Below, piece after piece: positions 210 through 35,127 of a DNA stretch of 35,127 bases (within the stretch, counting starts at the first letter, position 1; every line of letters starts with the position of its first letter). The DNA lies in assembly GCA_016188575.1 (NCBI GenBank), contig JACPHN010000065.1, positions 1 to 35,127 of the forward strand. The letters run 5' to 3'. The notes beneath the pieces are model-generated. The model ran no database searches and was not told the origin of the DNA. It saw nothing but the letters and a program-made list of their open reading frames with translations. This DNA comes from Candidatus Schekmanbacteria bacterium (lineage in GTDB: Bacteria; CSSED10-310; JACPHN01). Both the position numbers and the translations under genes were made by a program.

Positions 210-2805
210 CGAAGGCAAGAGCGCCGCTTCCCCACCCCCCAACCGCGGCGCGGTATGGGGGGAGCACCCGCGGCGCGATCCGGTGGAGAGGTTACAGCTC
301 ACACTCGCGTTGGTTCTTGTTGCGCTGTTCGCGGGCCTGACGACCGCAGATGGCGCGGCGATCGGGGGCGCCGATCGGGTGGCGCCACAGCCGCCGGCCG
401 AGCTCACCGCTAGCGCCGTTGCCAACGGCGTGGCGCTGGCGTGGACCAGCAGCGACGGCGCGGCTCGCTACCATCTGTATCGGCGCGTCGACGAAAGCTC
501 GTCGGTGGCCGAGCGAATTGCTTCGCTGTCCGCGGCCGAGCTTGCATATACGGATCTGGAAGCCTATGCGGGGGTGCGCTACGCGTACTCCGTTTCGGCG
601 GAGTCGGCGGCGGGCGAGGAGGGCGAGCGCTCGCCGGAAGCGACCGTTACCGCCGGCGCGGTCACATTCAACGTCAGTGTCCTTCCGGTCGGCGAGGCGG
701 CTGCGCGCCCGGGTGCAGCGCTGTTTTTTCTCATCGTGAAATCCGAGAACGGGTTCACAGACACCGTCCAAATTGAAGCAATCGATTGGCCGGTCGGGGT
801 GCAGCCGTTTTTTGCCCCATCCCTGGTGCCGGTGACCGCAGCGTCGCCCTGGGGTCTTGCGGGTCTGTGGGTTTCGGTCAGTGAGGAGGCCACGGTGCAG
901 GGGTGGGTGGCACTGAAAGTCCGCGCTACGGGACGCACCAGCGCCCAGGTCGTGGAGGCGTCCGTCAATCTGTACGTGCTGGGCACCGGCGAGACGCGCG
1001 TATTTCTGTGGACATTTCCGGCCCGCGTGCCGCTCGGCGGGCACGCCCATCTTCTCGGGCGCGTCATTCCCGGCGCCGGTGGCGGCGTGGTCACCATCGA
1101 CGCGGTACGGCCCGATGGCTCCGCCTATCCGAGCAAGACCGCGACGACAGGCCCGTTTGGATGGTTCCTGACCGACATTCAGCCGGACCAGGTCGGCGGG
1201 CCATGGCGGGTCACGGCCACCGTGAATGATGCTTCTTCAGCGCCGGCCAGCTTCTCGGTCGGTCAGAGACGGACGCTGATGGGTCTCTACACCGATATTC
1301 AGCCCGGAGAAACCGCTGGTCAGGTCGCGGGTTGGATTTTTCCCAATCCGCACTGGTACGCCTACGAAGCGACGATACCTGACGTCATCCTGCACTACCT
1401 GCCCCCGAACACCAAGGAAGGGGAAGCAGGAGAAGTAGTGCGCTCCGTGCCTCTCAATCCCGACGGCACGTTTGTGGATAACTTTGATGTCTATGCCGGC
1501 GAGGTGGGGAAATGGAAGCTCGTCGCGGAGTGGAGCGGGAACGACGTCTACATGGGGGTAAAACGAGCGGTTCAGGTGCCGCTGCTGGTGAGTGTGGGCA
1601 AGGCGATCGTCCTTGGCGCACTGCCGTCCGGAACGAATCTGGACAGCGTCGCGGGCAACACCATGAAGCGGATGACCGACCTCGCGTATCGGGTGCTGCT
1701 GATGCGGGGCTTCACGGCGGCGGACATCGCCTTTCTGTCACCTGATCTCGCGGACCCGCGAGTCGCCGGCGCCCCCACGCTGCAAAATCTGAGCGCGGCG
1801 GTAGCCGCATTCGCCGGCGCGACCACAAACCAATCGCCACTCGTACTCTACGCCCACGGACGGGCGCCCGCGGGCGCCGCCACCGCTGGTCTGGATCTCG
1901 GAAATGGGGACGTGCTCACATCCGCGGCAGTCAACAGCGTGCTCGGCACCGAATCGACCGTGCTGCTGCTCGATATCGATCAGAGCGGCCGGTACATCGC
2001 CGAAGACCTGGAGCGCTGGAACATTCTGACGGGAGAATGGAGGGCGCTGGTTACGGCGACGAATGACACCAGCCCGGCCCATAGCATGGCGGACGGGAGG
2101 ATCTCGGCGTTCAGCTTTTTCTGGACCTGGACGCAGTATGGGGCGAGTCTTTACGAGGCCGGGTATCTCACCGAGGCAGCGCTCAACACGCTGCTTACGC
2201 CCGAGTTTGCGGCGCAGGATCCGCAGCTCGGGATTTTCCGCAACCGGCAGGGGAACGACGCGTTCGACCTGATTTTGGCCGCGAATGTGTGGATCGGTTA
2301 TCCGGCGCAGCTTCCCACGGCCCCGCCGATTGTTCTGGACACCACGCCGGACGCCACAGCAGAGCGGCTCGGCGGCAGCCGGGAGAGCTTGCGAGCAGGG
2401 CTCGTCCCGTTCTGGGTCAACACCGCGGAACATCTGCCGCCCGTCGCCGGAGCCCCGTCGCCGGCACGAGCGAGCAACTTGCGCGTCTGGGCGGTCCCGT
2501 ACGCCCCCGTGGCGGCGCGCCTGCCCGAGGCGACACGCGGGCCTTACCTTGGCGAGGAGGTCGTGGAGCTCGCTGACCAGGATGGTGACCAGCGCTACAC
2601 GGGAAGCGTGCCGGTGGCGACGGACGGCGCTACAGTGGTGATTTCCTTCGCCGAGAACGAGCTGGGCCTCGTGTCGGATCCCGGTCGCACCGTGATCGTC
2701 GGGCAGGAGGTTCCGGCAGTTCCATCCCCGGGAGCGGAGCTGCTGCTGCTGCTCGCCCTCGCTGCAGCCTGGCGACGCCTGCCGCCCCGGATGCAGGCGC
2801 GATGA
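196..2805 (+). CDS. Large secreted protein: fibronectin-III domain, Ig-like region, inactive C13/caspase-like peptidase domain, PEP-CTERM-like tail
   Basis: The reading is 869 aa from ATG 196. An alternative GTG at 283 gives a compact signal peptide (VERLQLTLALVLVALFAG) and clears the upstream iscB gene, so the true start is uncertain. A fibronectin-III domain covers about residues 65-152. Ig-like beta segments follow to about 460. Residues about 470-690 look like the C13-like caspase-fold domain of secreted bacterial proteins: AIVLGALPSG, AYRVLLMRGF, FLSPD, then the catalytic His in YAHG (H554). Where that family has DACQSG this protein has DIDQSG, so the nucleophilic Cys is Asp595. The fold is probably kept without peptidase activity. 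The C-terminus (PSPGAE, a Leu/Ala helix, then RR) resembles a PEP-CTERM sorting tail. A surface binding role is inference. Confidence 0.75.
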   Translation: MSTRNEGKSAASPPPNRGAVWGEHPRRDPVERLQLTLALVLVALFAGLTTADGAAIGGADRVAPQPPAELTASAVANGVALAWTSSDGAARYHLYRRVDESSSVAERIASLSAAELAYTDLEAYAGVRYAYSVSAESAAGEEGERSPEATVTAGAVTFNVSVLPVGEAAARPGAALFFLIVKSENGFTDTVQIEAIDWPVGVQPFFAPSLVPVTAASPWGLAGLWVSVSEEATVQGWVALKVRATGRTSAQVVEASVNLYVLGTGETRVFLWTFPARVPLGGHAHLLGRVIPGAGGGVVTIDAVRPDGSAYPSKTATTGPFGWFLTDIQPDQVGGPWRVTATVNDASSAPASFSVGQRRTLMGLYTDIQPGETAGQVAGWIFPNPHWYAYEATIPDVILHYLPPNTKEGEAGEVVRSVPLNPDGTFVDNFDVYAGEVGKWKLVAEWSGNDVYMGVKRAVQVPLLVSVGKAIVLGALPSGTNLDSVAGNTMKRMTDLAYRVLLMRGFTAADIAFLSPDLADPRVAGAPTLQNLSAAVAAFAGATTNQSPLVLYAHGRAPAGAATAGLDLGNGDVLTSAAVNSVLGTESTVLLLDIDQSGRYIAEDLERWNILTGEWRALVTATNDTSPAHSMADGRISAFSFFWTWTQYGASLYEAGYLTEAALNTLLTPEFAAQDPQLGIFRNRQGNDAFDLILAANVWIGYPAQLPTAPPIVLDTTPDATAERLGGSRESLRAGLVPFWVNTAEHLPPVAGAPSPARASNLRVWAVPYAPVAARLPEATRGPYLGEEVVELADQDGDQRYTGSVPVATDGATVVISFAENELGLVSDPGRTVIVGQEVPAVPSPGAELLLLLALAAAWRRLPPRMQAR
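210..282 (+). other. Possible right boundary of the iscB element: G/C inverted tracts and a 10-bp direct repeat
   Basis: Just past the iscB stop there is a C-rich tract (about 229-240) facing a G-rich tract (257-264), which could pair as a hairpin around a 16-nt loop. The 10-mer CCGCGGCGCG occurs at 243-252 and again at 268-277. IS200/IS605-type elements have subterminal hairpins rather than terminal inverted repeats, so this could be the right end. No cleavage site or matching left end can be seen here, so the boundary is inferred. Confidence 0.25.
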
Positions 2806-2863: not shown

Positions 2864-5386
2864 GTGCTAGGCGGCGGCAAGCGTAAGGCCGCGCTGTCCC
2901 GAATCGGCCCGTACGTGCTCGAAGACCGACTCGGTGAAGGCGGCATGGCGGAGGTCTTTCGCTGCCGGCACGAGGCCACCGGTGAGCGCTTTGCGGCGAA
3001 AATCCCGCACGACGACTGCGATGAGTCGTGGCAAATGCGCTTTCATCGCGAGTGGCGCATCGCTCTTCGCCTCGCGGAGACGTTTCCACGTCACGGCGGT
3101 TTTGTCAAAGCCCATGAAGTCATCGAGATCGGCGATGGGCGTCATGGGTTGATCATGGAGCTCGTCGAGGGTGGAGATGTCAAGACTTATTTTCAGTCGC
3201 TGCGCGGCCGCGAAGAGCTCGGCTTTTCGGAGAAAGCACAGCTCGCGCTGGAGCTCATTCGGCAGACACTGGTGTCGCTGGATCTGCTGCACCGCGAGGG
3301 TCTGATCCACCGCGACCTCAAGCCGAGCAACTTGTTGGTAAGCAGGTCTGGCGAGGTGAAGCTCGCGGACTTCGGTCTGGCGGGCGAGACTGTGGCCAGT
3401 GACTACACGATCATCACGGTCACGGGCGATGTGCTGGGAACTCCATCGCATTGTTCTCCCGAGCAGTTCGGAGATCCCCATAAGGTGGGGCCGGCAAGCG
3501 ACCTTTACTCCGTGGGGTGTGTGCTGTTCGACTTGCTCGCCGGCCGGCCGCCGTTTTGCGGCAACCTCTGGCAGGTGCGGGCGGGCCATCTGGGGCAGCC
3601 GGCTCCGCGCGTGTCGACATTCGCACCGGAGTGCCCCGCTGAGCTCGACGCGTGGGTGGCGGCGCTGCTCGAAAAGGAGCCGCAGGCGCGCCCGCGGTCG
3701 GCCGCTGAGCTGCTCCGGTCTCTACAGACGGTGGTGGCGTGTCTGGCGCGGCGCCACGCCGGTGTGGCCCCGACCCAGCCCCTGCAGCGCCTGGGTCAGG
3801 ATACCGAGACGCACGACCCGACGGAGGACAGGCGCCGCCGCAGCGAGCGCACGGAAGTCGCCGATCCCGGCCGACTCGCACATCGCTATCAGATCAGCGA
3901 GCTGATTGGAAGCGGCGGGATGGGCGCCGTCTTTCGCGCGGTCGACCGGGCGACCGGCGGCAATTTGGTGCTCAAGCTCCCCCACCCCTGGCTCTTGAAG
4001 GACGATGAGATGCGGCGGCGCTGGGACGTGGAGCGCAGCGTCCTGGAGACGCTGGAGCTTCCCGGCATTCCGCGCCTGCTCGACCATGGACCCCGTGCCG
4101 AGTGTGACGTGCCTTTCATCGCCATGGAGCTCGTGAGCGGTCTGCGAATCGACAGGCACTGCGCGCGGCTGGAGGGCGCGCCGGCGCCGGGCCGCGCGCC
4201 GACGTACGCATATCTGCGCGAGGTAGCGCGACTCGCGATCAGACTTTGCCGCATTCTCGTCGAGCTTCACCGCCACGGAATTCTGCATCGGGACGTAAAG
4301 CCCGCAAATATCATCGTGACCAATGACGATCGACCCGTACTGATCGACTTTGGGATTGCCGGGATCTTGCCGGCAAGCGATCCGAATCTGACCCAACGGC
4401 AGACGTCACCAGGCTGGCGAATGGGCTCGCCGCGGTATCAGGCGCGAGAAGCCATGGAGTCGCTGCGCAGCGCCTCGCAGGATAGCGACATTCAGTCGCT
4501 CGGGTTGACGCTGTACGAGCTCGCGACGGGAGTGCCGGTGATCGACCGCGACGCGCGACCGCGGCACCATCACGAGGACTTTCCGGAGGAGCTCGAGGAG
4601 ATCATTGTCTCCATGCTGGCGACGCAGCGGGAGCGGTGGTCGCCGATCAAGGTGGCGGCGCGGCTGGGAGCGTTTTTTGGGCTGGAGAGTCTCGTAGAGG
4701 CCATCTTTTCGCGCGCAGCGCTGACGTATCTCAAGACGCCGCCGTCGCTGGCCGGCCATGGAGAACCTGACCGGGACGCGTCGTCCGCCCTGACCGCCAT
4801 GCGCGGCCTGTTGTCCGCAGCTCCGCCGCAGGTGCTCGTCCTCTCCGGGCCTCGCGGGGGCGGGAAGACGCGGCTGGTGCGGCAGTTACGGACGGAGGCA
4901 GCGGCGAGCTCGCGCCCGGCCGGAGTCGTTCGCCTGGACTGGAGGTCGGTGCGCAGTGAGAAGCTTTCGCGGTTTCAGGCAAACGTCCGCGTGGTCGCGT
5001 TCGATGACGTTGCCGTAGGCACCGGCGAGGAGCGCCGGCGATTGGAGTCCATCCTGGAGTCGCTCGGGGGCTCCTGCTGTCTGATCCTGACATGCGACTC
5101 GGCAGCGGCGGGAGAGGTCGGCGCCATCGCCCGCGGAATCACGGGCGAGGCCGTGCGCGGCGCGGCGCTGCCGCCGCTGTCGGAAGAAGAAACGGCGCGG
5201 CTGGTGTCGTCTCTGCTCGGCGGCGACACCGCACCGGCGGGGCTCTTCCGTGCGGCGTATGCGCGGTCGCGGGGCATTCCCGGCGCCGCGATCACGTTTC
5301 TGGCCGAGAGCATCGGGCCGGAACCGGGGCGCGGGATGCTGAGCCGGGGACCCGATGCCGCCTGGCGAATCGACGCGGACGAGTAG
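2864..5386 (+). CDS. Tandem Ser/Thr protein kinase fused to a C-terminal P-loop ATPase domain
   Basis: The protein is 840 aa from GTG 2864, the first start after an in-frame TAG at 2828; no good Shine-Dalgarno is visible. Kinase 1 (about 17-285) has GEGGMAEVFR, Lys46, HRDLKPSN with Asp151, and DFG at Asp169. Kinase 2 (about 343-615) has GSGGMGAVFR, Lys371, HRDVKPAN with Asp477, and DFG at Asp495. Both keep the residues needed for catalysis. A low-complexity Arg-rich linker (about 300-338) joins them. A Walker A motif, GPRGGGKT, sits at 662-669 and a Walker B-like VVAFDDV has Asp714. Only about 170 residues follow Walker A, so this is a short AAA/STAND-like module without sensor repeats. There is no transmembrane segment, so it is cytoplasmic. 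The FHA protein just downstream is a plausible phosphothreonine-reading partner. Substrates are unknown. Confidence 0.88.
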   Translation: MLGGGKRKAALSRIGPYVLEDRLGEGGMAEVFRCRHEATGERFAAKIPHDDCDESWQMRFHREWRIALRLAETFPRHGGFVKAHEVIEIGDGRHGLIMELVEGGDVKTYFQSLRGREELGFSEKAQLALELIRQTLVSLDLLHREGLIHRDLKPSNLLVSRSGEVKLADFGLAGETVASDYTIITVTGDVLGTPSHCSPEQFGDPHKVGPASDLYSVGCVLFDLLAGRPPFCGNLWQVRAGHLGQPAPRVSTFAPECPAELDAWVAALLEKEPQARPRSAAELLRSLQTVVACLARRHAGVAPTQPLQRLGQDTETHDPTEDRRRRSERTEVADPGRLAHRYQISELIGSGGMGAVFRAVDRATGGNLVLKLPHPWLLKDDEMRRRWDVERSVLETLELPGIPRLLDHGPRAECDVPFIAMELVSGLRIDRHCARLEGAPAPGRAPTYAYLREVARLAIRLCRILVELHRHGILHRDVKPANIIVTNDDRPVLIDFGIAGILPASDPNLTQRQTSPGWRMGSPRYQAREAMESLRSASQDSDIQSLGLTLYELATGVPVIDRDARPRHHHEDFPEELEEIIVSMLATQRERWSPIKVAARLGAFFGLESLVEAIFSRAALTYLKTPPSLAGHGEPDRDASSALTAMRGLLSAAPPQVLVLSGPRGGGKTRLVRQLRTEAAASSRPAGVVRLDWRSVRSEKLSRFQANVRVVAFDDVAVGTGEERRRLESILESLGGSCCLILTCDSAAAGEVGAIARGITGEAVRGAALPPLSEEETARLVSSLLGGDTAPAGLFRAAYARSRGIPGAAITFLAESIGPEPGRGMLSRGPDAAWRIDADE

Positions 5387-33025: not shown

Positions 33026-33517
33026 AAAGTCCTCCGGGACAAAACGGTGTGCCCGCCACAGCCAGCTCGTGCGTCCAGGATGGGCGACCGGTTCGCGGCG
33101 ACGTACGCTCGCGTTTGCCGGCGCGGCGCGAGGCCGCCGTCGTTGTCATGTAGCTCGCCGTCGGGGTGACAACGGCCCTCTCCGTCCCTCTTTCATGGGT
33201 AGTGTTTCAAAGGAAGCGCGTGGAGCCATCCCAGTAGGCGTTGAGCGTTCTTCCGGGTCGCCCCGGACCTGCCCGTAGCCTTCGCCCTCGCCCCCACCCT
33301 CGGCGTGGCCGGGCGCGCGCCCGATGGCGGGATCTCATGGTGCGCTTATCTTCACCAGCAACGAGCCAGTGGACTATCGTGTTGCCTTCGGCGCACCTTG
33401 TCTTATGAATCGCCCGGACCCGCGCTGCGGCTTCTTGATGCCCGCCGGCGCCCGCGCTAGACTCGAGGATGCCGGCTCGTCACGACTGCTGGTCACAGCC
33501 AGAAGGAGGTTCTCGGG
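33026..33517. other. 492-bp intergenic region between alaS and the secreted gene
   Basis: No gene is supported; the short open frames here lack protein-like composition and start signals. It contains an 8-bp inverted repeat CGTTGTCA (33141-33148) / TGACAACG (33167-33174) with an 18-nt spacer, a 14-bp palindrome CGGGCGCGCGCCCG at 33310-33323, and the promoter of the next gene. Confidence 0.5.
33435..33463 (+). promoter_or_regulatory. Sigma70-type promoter for the terminal secreted gene
   Basis: TTGATG (33435-33440) and TAGACT (33458-33463) are 17 nt apart. The -10 is identical to that of pilT. The leader to ATG 33518 would be about 48 nt and contains AAGGAGG at 33503-33509. Confidence 0.6.
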
Positions 33518-33529
33518 ATGCGAGAGGTT

Positions 33530-33536
33530 GGGGGGG
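33530..33536 (+). repeat. G7 homopolymer just after the start codon of the secreted gene
   Basis: Seven consecutive G residues lie 12 nt into the reading frame of ATG 33518. Six G's would put the start in frame with the signal peptide; seven do not. Poly-G tracts are classic slipped-strand sites and also common sequencing-error sites. Confidence 0.8.
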
Positions 33537-33837
33537 TACGGCCGGATCGTCGTCGTAGCAGTGGCGGCGTGCTGCTGTGCGCTGCTCGCACTGGCGGCCA
33601 CCGGCGCGGCGGCGCAGGTGGATGAGAGCTTCGAGAGCGGCAGCCTCGGAGCGACCCTCAAGGCCGACATTGTGCTGCACGGCTTTTCGGGCGACGACCG
33701 GCAGACGGGGCACCAAGTGCAACCGGGGGGCAATCCCGTAGATGGCTCGGATTGTACGATAGACTGGGAGCTGACCTCGAAGGTGGAGATCAAGTCCCAC
33801 TGGCGCGCGCGGCTGGGCCGCGAGACGCCGCCGGATT

Positions 33838-33925
33838 ACCTGCCGGAAGGCGACATCGCCAGCCCCGGGAACCCGGCGGGGACCTGCCGGAAGGCGACAT
33901 CGCCAGCCCCGGGAACCCGGCGGGG
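33838..33925 (+). repeat. Exact 44-bp tandem duplication inside the secreted gene
   Basis: Positions 33838-33881 and 33882-33925 are identical, each starting ACCTGCCGGAAGG and ending AACCCGGCGGGG. The unit is not a multiple of 3, so one copy keeps the frame and two break it. The perfect identity implies a recent event. Confidence 0.95.
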
Positions 33926-35127
33926 CGCACGGTCGAATACGTGCTCGAGGCGCGCCCGAACTGGGCATTCGAGGCGGCCAAGCTCGAGCTGGGCTTCGGG
34001 AGCACGCGGTACCCCGGCATCGCGACGAACGAGCCGTACGCGACCCCGGTGCCGCTGCCGAACGTGGACGACATCGCGTATTCCCCGCCAACGGGCGGGC
34101 GGGCCACGGTGCCGTCCACGACCAAGTGGCCCGGTTGGATCGACCCGTTCCACGCCGGTGGCGCCGCCGGGGACAACGCGCATGCGTACTTCGACACCAG
34201 CTTCCTGTGGTACTGGGTCGTGACCTACGACCAGGCGCTTGTCGCCTCCGTCGCCCCGAAGATCACGGCGCGATCCACCGACTTCGGCGCGAAGGGCTTT
34301 TTCGCCGCCCGGTGGACGCCCAAATACCAGAGCGACATCGAGTACATCACGCTTTCGGGACCCGTCGCCGCCGGGGACACCAGCACGCGCAAGGTTTTCC
34401 AGATCCCGCGCGACGACGATGGGGACGCGTTTCCGGAGGCGCAGTGGCTGCCGATTTCGGTCAACCCGTGCCCCGGCCAGACGCTGCCGCTGATGCCGGA
34501 TTCCGACACCGATTGCCACACGGACCGGCTCAACGGCAAGCGCCCCGGCGATGGGTTGCTGGCGTACGATGAGTATCGGGGGCTGATTTTCCCACCGAAT
34601 CCCCAGAGCCCTCTGGTGCACGAGCGCACCGCGCCGTGGACCAAGGACGTGTTCGTAGTGTACGCAAAGGGGCGTGACGGGGTCACCAATGTCTCGGCCG
34701 ATCTCAAACCCGGCGCCGAATCCTTCGGAATCGGCGCTCAGGTAAACCTCCACGCCAGGGCGAATCCGAATATCCGCACGGAGCTCCAGGGGCAAGCGCT
34801 CATCACCAACCCGTATCGCACCGATCCACTCGCGGGAGAGCAGCGACTCGTCCAGGTGCTGCTGCCGCCGAAAATGGGGAATACGGCCTGGCGATGGGGA
34901 ACTACGCAAATCGGCAAGTTCCTCGCGAGGGTCGATGTCGAGCGCATCCGCAAGGACGTCGTCGATACGCCCCTCGGGCCCCAGGACGCGGCGATCGTCA
35001 ACCTCACCGGCAACGAGCTGACGCACGCGGTCGGCATCGACGACCACCAGCCCACCGCGGCCTGCCCGGTCCCACTGACCTGCGGCATGGTCCCGGTGCC
35101 GGCGCGGCCCCGAGCCGACCTGGGGCA

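Follow-up and report, generated by a model that had tools for sequence, protein, structure and literature searches.

Introduction

The best-described cases of phase variation through repeat tracts come from host-adapted pathogens and commensals, and in the opa genes of Neisseria the tract is located within the leader-peptide region. The opa genes form a multi-copy surface-protein family with CTTCT repeats, distributed over some 4-12 loci whose near-identical copies cause trouble in assembly (PMC5953494). In Helicobacter pylori, oipA carries a CT dinucleotide tract within the signal-peptide coding region and is turned ON or OFF through its reading frame by slipped-strand mispairing (PMC10564699), and the phasevarion DNA methyltransferase M.MmyCI contains 12 AG repeats (PMC3498834).

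Here we examine a window of 35,127 nt, the whole stretch of DNA analysed, which is the end of contig C181 in a draft genome of 9.2 Mb and 275 contigs, and which holds near its 3' end the beginning of a gene for a secreted protein that is truncated at 35127, where the contig ends. On the strength of sequence comparisons within this genome, we consider it about 80% probable that the gene is an OFF-frame copy of a large, modular secreted-protein family under repeat-tract phase variation. The family resembles oipA, and the other hop genes sabA and babA, in having a tract in the signal-peptide coding region (CT in H. pylori) that would act as a frame-based switch, and it differs in using G, CT and GT tracts at one position across about 37 module copies. 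The oipA, sabA and babA products are outer-membrane adhesins of a host-adapted pathogen, and we claim no homology to them. The likeness to opa lies in the many copies, each with a tract that may control expression, and in the attendant assembly trouble; opa, however, has a pentanucleotide unit and encodes beta-barrel proteins, whereas the present family has mono- and dinucleotide units and encodes large modular secreted proteins. Searches of the family proteins against Pfam, NCBIfam and PDB returned no relevant match, including to the opa or hop families, and yielded weak reprolysin-like matches only.

If this reading is true, some 37 modules in a sparsely sampled phylum would, in our judgement, be among the larger single-family phase-variable repertoires. 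They would also form a natural collection in which to study the origin of tracts and the exchange of one repeat unit for another, G, CT and GT being interchangeable at a single position. For annotation, automated pipelines would label most genes of the family as pseudogenes; the family also causes the assembly to fragment.

Structure of the window gene

The features of the window gene are collected in Table 1, together with exact duplications in two other family members. The original prediction had described a promoter, a strong Shine-Dalgarno and a signal peptide, a description that inspection of the sequence bore out base for base, and had placed frame breaks at a G7 run near the ATG and at an exact 44-bp duplication, both of which are present. 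Its further suggestion that the two breaks compensate one another is right as arithmetic (1 + 44 = 45) but is without translational effect, because the ATG frame has already ended at TGA 33623. An upstream start in the signal-peptide frame was also considered and is unlikely, since the ATG concerned sits inside the -35 box. Also identified 5' of the gene was a stretch of about 100 bp (window 33300-33399) that is a dispersed repeat, with 74-86% identity on contigs C177, C217, C185, C46, C234, C209, C255 and C275.

Table 1. Coordinates of the window gene and of exact tandem duplications in other family members (window positions unless a contig is named)
Feature	Position	Strand	Remarks
Putative promoter, TTGATG (33435-33440)-N17-TAGACT (33458-33463), sigma-70-like	33435..33463	+	From sequence; similar TTGnnn-N17 boxes 5' of paralogous modules
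Shine-Dalgarno AAGGAGG	33503..33509	+	From sequence; kept in 5/5 type-A copies
ATG	33518..33520		8 nt beyond the Shine-Dalgarno
ATG-frame ORF, 35 codons, then TGA 33623-33625	33518..33625	+	
TTG in signal-peptide frame, weak alternative start	33528..33530	+	18 nt past the Shine-Dalgarno
Poly-G tract, G7	33530..33536	+	G10, G10, G10 and T+G8 in the four closest paralogous modules
Predicted signal peptide YGRIVVVAVAACCCALLALAATGAAA, then Q	33537..33614	+	Frame +1 relative to ATG; identical peptide in paralogs
Start of mature protein, QVDESFESGSL..., then C226-like body	33615..33837	+	
44-bp unit, copy 1	33838..33881	+	
44-bp unit, copy 2	33882..33925	+	Frame-breaking; missing in C226
Protein body in shifted frame, metzincin-like region with degenerate NELTHAVGIDDH	33926..35127	+	Truncated by contig end
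Exact 82-bp tandem duplication	C214, L023 revcomp 212-374		Frame-breaking; family member
Exact 88-bp tandem duplication	C238, L228 294-462		Frame-breaking; family member

The two copies of the 44-bp unit are identical and constitute the sole exact tandem repeat of period 15-150 in the window. Paralog C226 is matched by the signal-peptide frame 5' of the repeat and by the next frame 3' of it, with window segments 33657-33884 and 33866-35092 matching overlapping query residues in this comparison, and C226 itself carries a single copy of the unit in an unbroken frame. Around the repeat no flanking microhomology was seen, the match run being exactly 44 for period 44, and neither the position nor the unit of the repeat is shared with the paralogs. 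Because of this repeat, the window copy does not keep an intact frame beyond its tract; its body gives dN/dS values of 0.20-0.27 against three paralogs (simple counting method). The family encodes large proteins of modular build; their linkers are rich in Thr and Pro, and some members contain a metzincin-like motif. At the zinc-motif site of the window copy, the first His has been lost relative to HExxHxxxxxH, while paralog C211 reads HEVGHAIGAAH and gives sub-threshold matches to Pfam Reprolysin.

A start module recurring with tracts of different unit and length

A DNA search of the same genome located region 33413-33648 at four other places with 93-96% identity, and each of these relatives, which with the window copy make up type A (tracts in Table 1), continues into different or cut-off sequence. 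A second, diverged poly-G module with the same order of elements (type B) has tracts of G7, G8 and G10. Across roughly 200 bp, the modules with G7 and G8 share 98% identity; the G7 module is out of frame, and G8 alone is in frame. Furthermore, the first mature domain (DESFESG..LPW) used as a query gave 48 matches in the genome, and the regions 5' of these matches contain (CT)n between the Shine-Dalgarno-ATG and the hydrophobic core. In total, the start module is present in about 37 copies of six types (A-F), a count that includes one degenerate copy, C102, and another, C205, that is truncated too early for its frame to be read. Types A and B have poly-G, and types C to F have CT, sometimes joined to GT; the gap between the ATG and the signal-peptide core is occupied by poly-G in 8 copies (G7, G8, G10), most of the remaining copies having (CT)n or (GT)n there, with n = 4-13. 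One member with a type-B module and G10, C240:17385 (L069), is joined to unrelated sequence past the signal peptide and represents a remnant or a rearranged copy.

The family places, in the 5' coding region, a tract whose unit (G, CT or GT) is not a multiple of three. In comparisons of paralogous modules within this one genome, otherwise collinear copies differ mainly in tract length, other insertions and deletions being sparse in the module alignment; tract length varies among close copies and changes the frame in type B, and varies by multiples of 3 only in type A. The family was not found in seven genomes of the same phylum. Contig scans of other genomes gave no relatives with the gene body as query, and with the domain one weak Bacteroidota match without the module.

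The gene start in this family follows one layout of promoter, Shine-Dalgarno, ATG, simple-sequence tract (G, CT or GT) and signal-peptide core. Slipped-strand mispairing during replication would alter the length of the tract, a change in length would bring the ATG into the frame of the signal peptide or take it out of that frame, and each copy would then be stochastically exported (ON) or end as a short peptide (OFF). This scheme presumes that translation begins at the ATG and that tract lengths switch within a population.

Enrichment at the module position is pronounced for CT. Of 19 separate (CT)6+ sites in the 9.2 Mb genome, 17 lie within the start module, and the CT-tract pattern gave 71 rows in this genome, 0-1 in the seven genomes from the same phylum and no more than 24 in other genomes searched; there were no CT or GA tracts of more than 4 units in 400 kb of control sequence from ten long contigs. 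(GT)6 occurs at two sites in the genome, one of which is a module copy. A G7 tract by itself is not rare, since 26 G or C runs of 7 or more occur in 400 kb of control sequence, and G9+ runs gave 86 rows genome-wide, so that enrichment over background is seen for CT tracts and not shown for G. Accordingly, the candidate poly-G switch is argued from its conserved position and its length differences, poly-G as such being less telling. A genome-wide poly-G regime was considered and set aside: sites with Shine-Dalgarno, ATG and G7 are mostly family members, and 30 sampled G9+ tracts lie mostly elsewhere.

Frame states of the copies

Counting as long any tract of CT6+, any GT tract and any G run of 7+, we could read the frame of 25 copies, and in 23 of them the ATG does not share the frame of the signal peptide. 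The two in frame are C246 and C77, the latter with its domain broken further on. A binomial test against an expectation of one third in frame gave 0.0035, a value to be read in the light of the shared ancestry of the copies. By comparison, the signal peptide is in frame in 7/7 type-C copies whose CT tract is short or absent, two of which (C4 and C67) are broken later. The out-of-frame copies are divided unevenly, with 18/23 in class +1 and 5/23 in class +2, and the five type-A tract lengths fall into a single frame class, differing by 0 or 3 nt. Free switching would be expected to give a more even distribution, and these two observations count against it, albeit among copies that are not independent.

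Alternative readings

Could the tracts and the duplication simply have inactivated the genes of a family that was duplicated and is now dying out? Among long-tract copies the majority are out of frame, further frame breaks or stops are found in the window copy, C4, C67, C77, C238 and C239, and the C240 module has been fused to unrelated sequence, all of which are in keeping with decay. However, OFF copies retain long ORFs in the signal-peptide frame (1129 codons in C143, 895 in C195 and 594 in C133), pairs of OFF copies in type D give dN/dS values of 0.25-0.37 (simple counting method), and the coding frame past the tract is kept intact and constrained. Moreover, the tracts, including 17 of the 19 CT tracts noted above, are confined to the sole place where they would act as a switch, with few indels elsewhere. 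We consider decay of the family unlikely; judged from these frames, simple decay does not account for the family, while decay of individual copies is real. The pseudogene alternative raised in the original prediction fits the 44-bp lesion better and the tract more poorly. It is also quite unlikely that type-A copies begin at the in-frame TTG (33528 in the window), leaving the ATG unused and the copies ON. The frame class is conserved in 5/5 type-A copies and the TTG is in frame in 4/5, but the TTG lies 18 nt from the Shine-Dalgarno as against 8 nt for the ATG, C44 has no TTG, and in types B, D and E the signal-peptide frame offers no suitably placed start codon. Because of this in-frame TTG, the OFF call is less certain for type A, the window copy included, than for types B, D and E.

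Repeat-tract phase variation, our preferred reading, leaves the 44-bp repeat to be explained. Long exact repeats gather in the start-module family, and all three are near contig ends, at distances of 1.2 kb for the 44-bp repeat, 0.2 kb for the 82-bp repeat and 0.3 kb for the 88-bp repeat, with microhomology of 0-2 bp. The draft is fragmented and breaks at the repeats of this family, and in 400 kb of interior sequence there were no two-copy exact repeats of period >21, except for a multiple of a 21-bp array. This pattern raises the prospect of an assembly artefact, which we regard as a serious one falling somewhat short of even odds, and which mainly concerns the 44-bp repeat rather than the tracts, although tract lengths could be consensus values or assembly errors, homopolymers possibly among them. 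Against it, 60 kb of unrelated contig starts contained no two-copy exact repeats of period >12, ordinary reads should suffice for the correct assembly of dinucleotide tracts as long as 26 bp, and lengths of 44, 82 and 88 bp are unlike common k-mer sizes. For the G tract, the approximately 37 paralogous modules lend strong support to the contingency locus put forward in the original prediction; the extension of that idea to two switches, with tract and 44-bp repeat both reversible, is very unlikely. Perfect tandem repeats can contract, and exact frame-breaking repeats occur in two other members, but a switch needs a recurrent site, whereas the position and unit of this repeat are unshared and it has no flanking microhomology, and the ATG frame ends 5' of it. 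Equally improbable is a two-layer system in which the tracts would switch export of some 25-37 proteins and the 44-, 82- and 88-bp duplications would form a second, slower, reversible layer. A second switch is the least likely reading of the 44-bp repeat, which is more likely a separate lesion of the window copy, or an assembly error, than part of the switch. These assessments are not mutually exclusive.

Repeat tracts outside the family

The other two (CT/GA)6+ sites of the genome lie in an N6/N4 DNA methyltransferase gene and directly after the ATG of an unrelated ORF. In the former (G000:C194, L206:2184-4167, + strand), (GA)8 at 3691-3706 splits the methyltransferase gene (PF01555, E 3e-34) between two frames, a layout like that of the phasevarion gene for M.MmyCI; the gene has the appearance of a phase-variable Type III mod gene, the Type III assignment being by resemblance only. 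In the latter (G000:C86:9974-9999, L197:2974-2999, + strand), (GA)13 comes straight after the ATG of an ORF beginning MSIMRERERERESKDDAV..., which has no Pfam match and is in frame in the assembly. Both tracts would fit the tract habit of the family. A (GT)11 tract was also found at G000:C58:10389-10410 (L263), with no clear gene there. Finally, loci L080, L088 and L089 have runs of G9-G15 after a common, CTCAAGAGCATGTAGCGC-like sequence, which is possibly the end of a mobile element.
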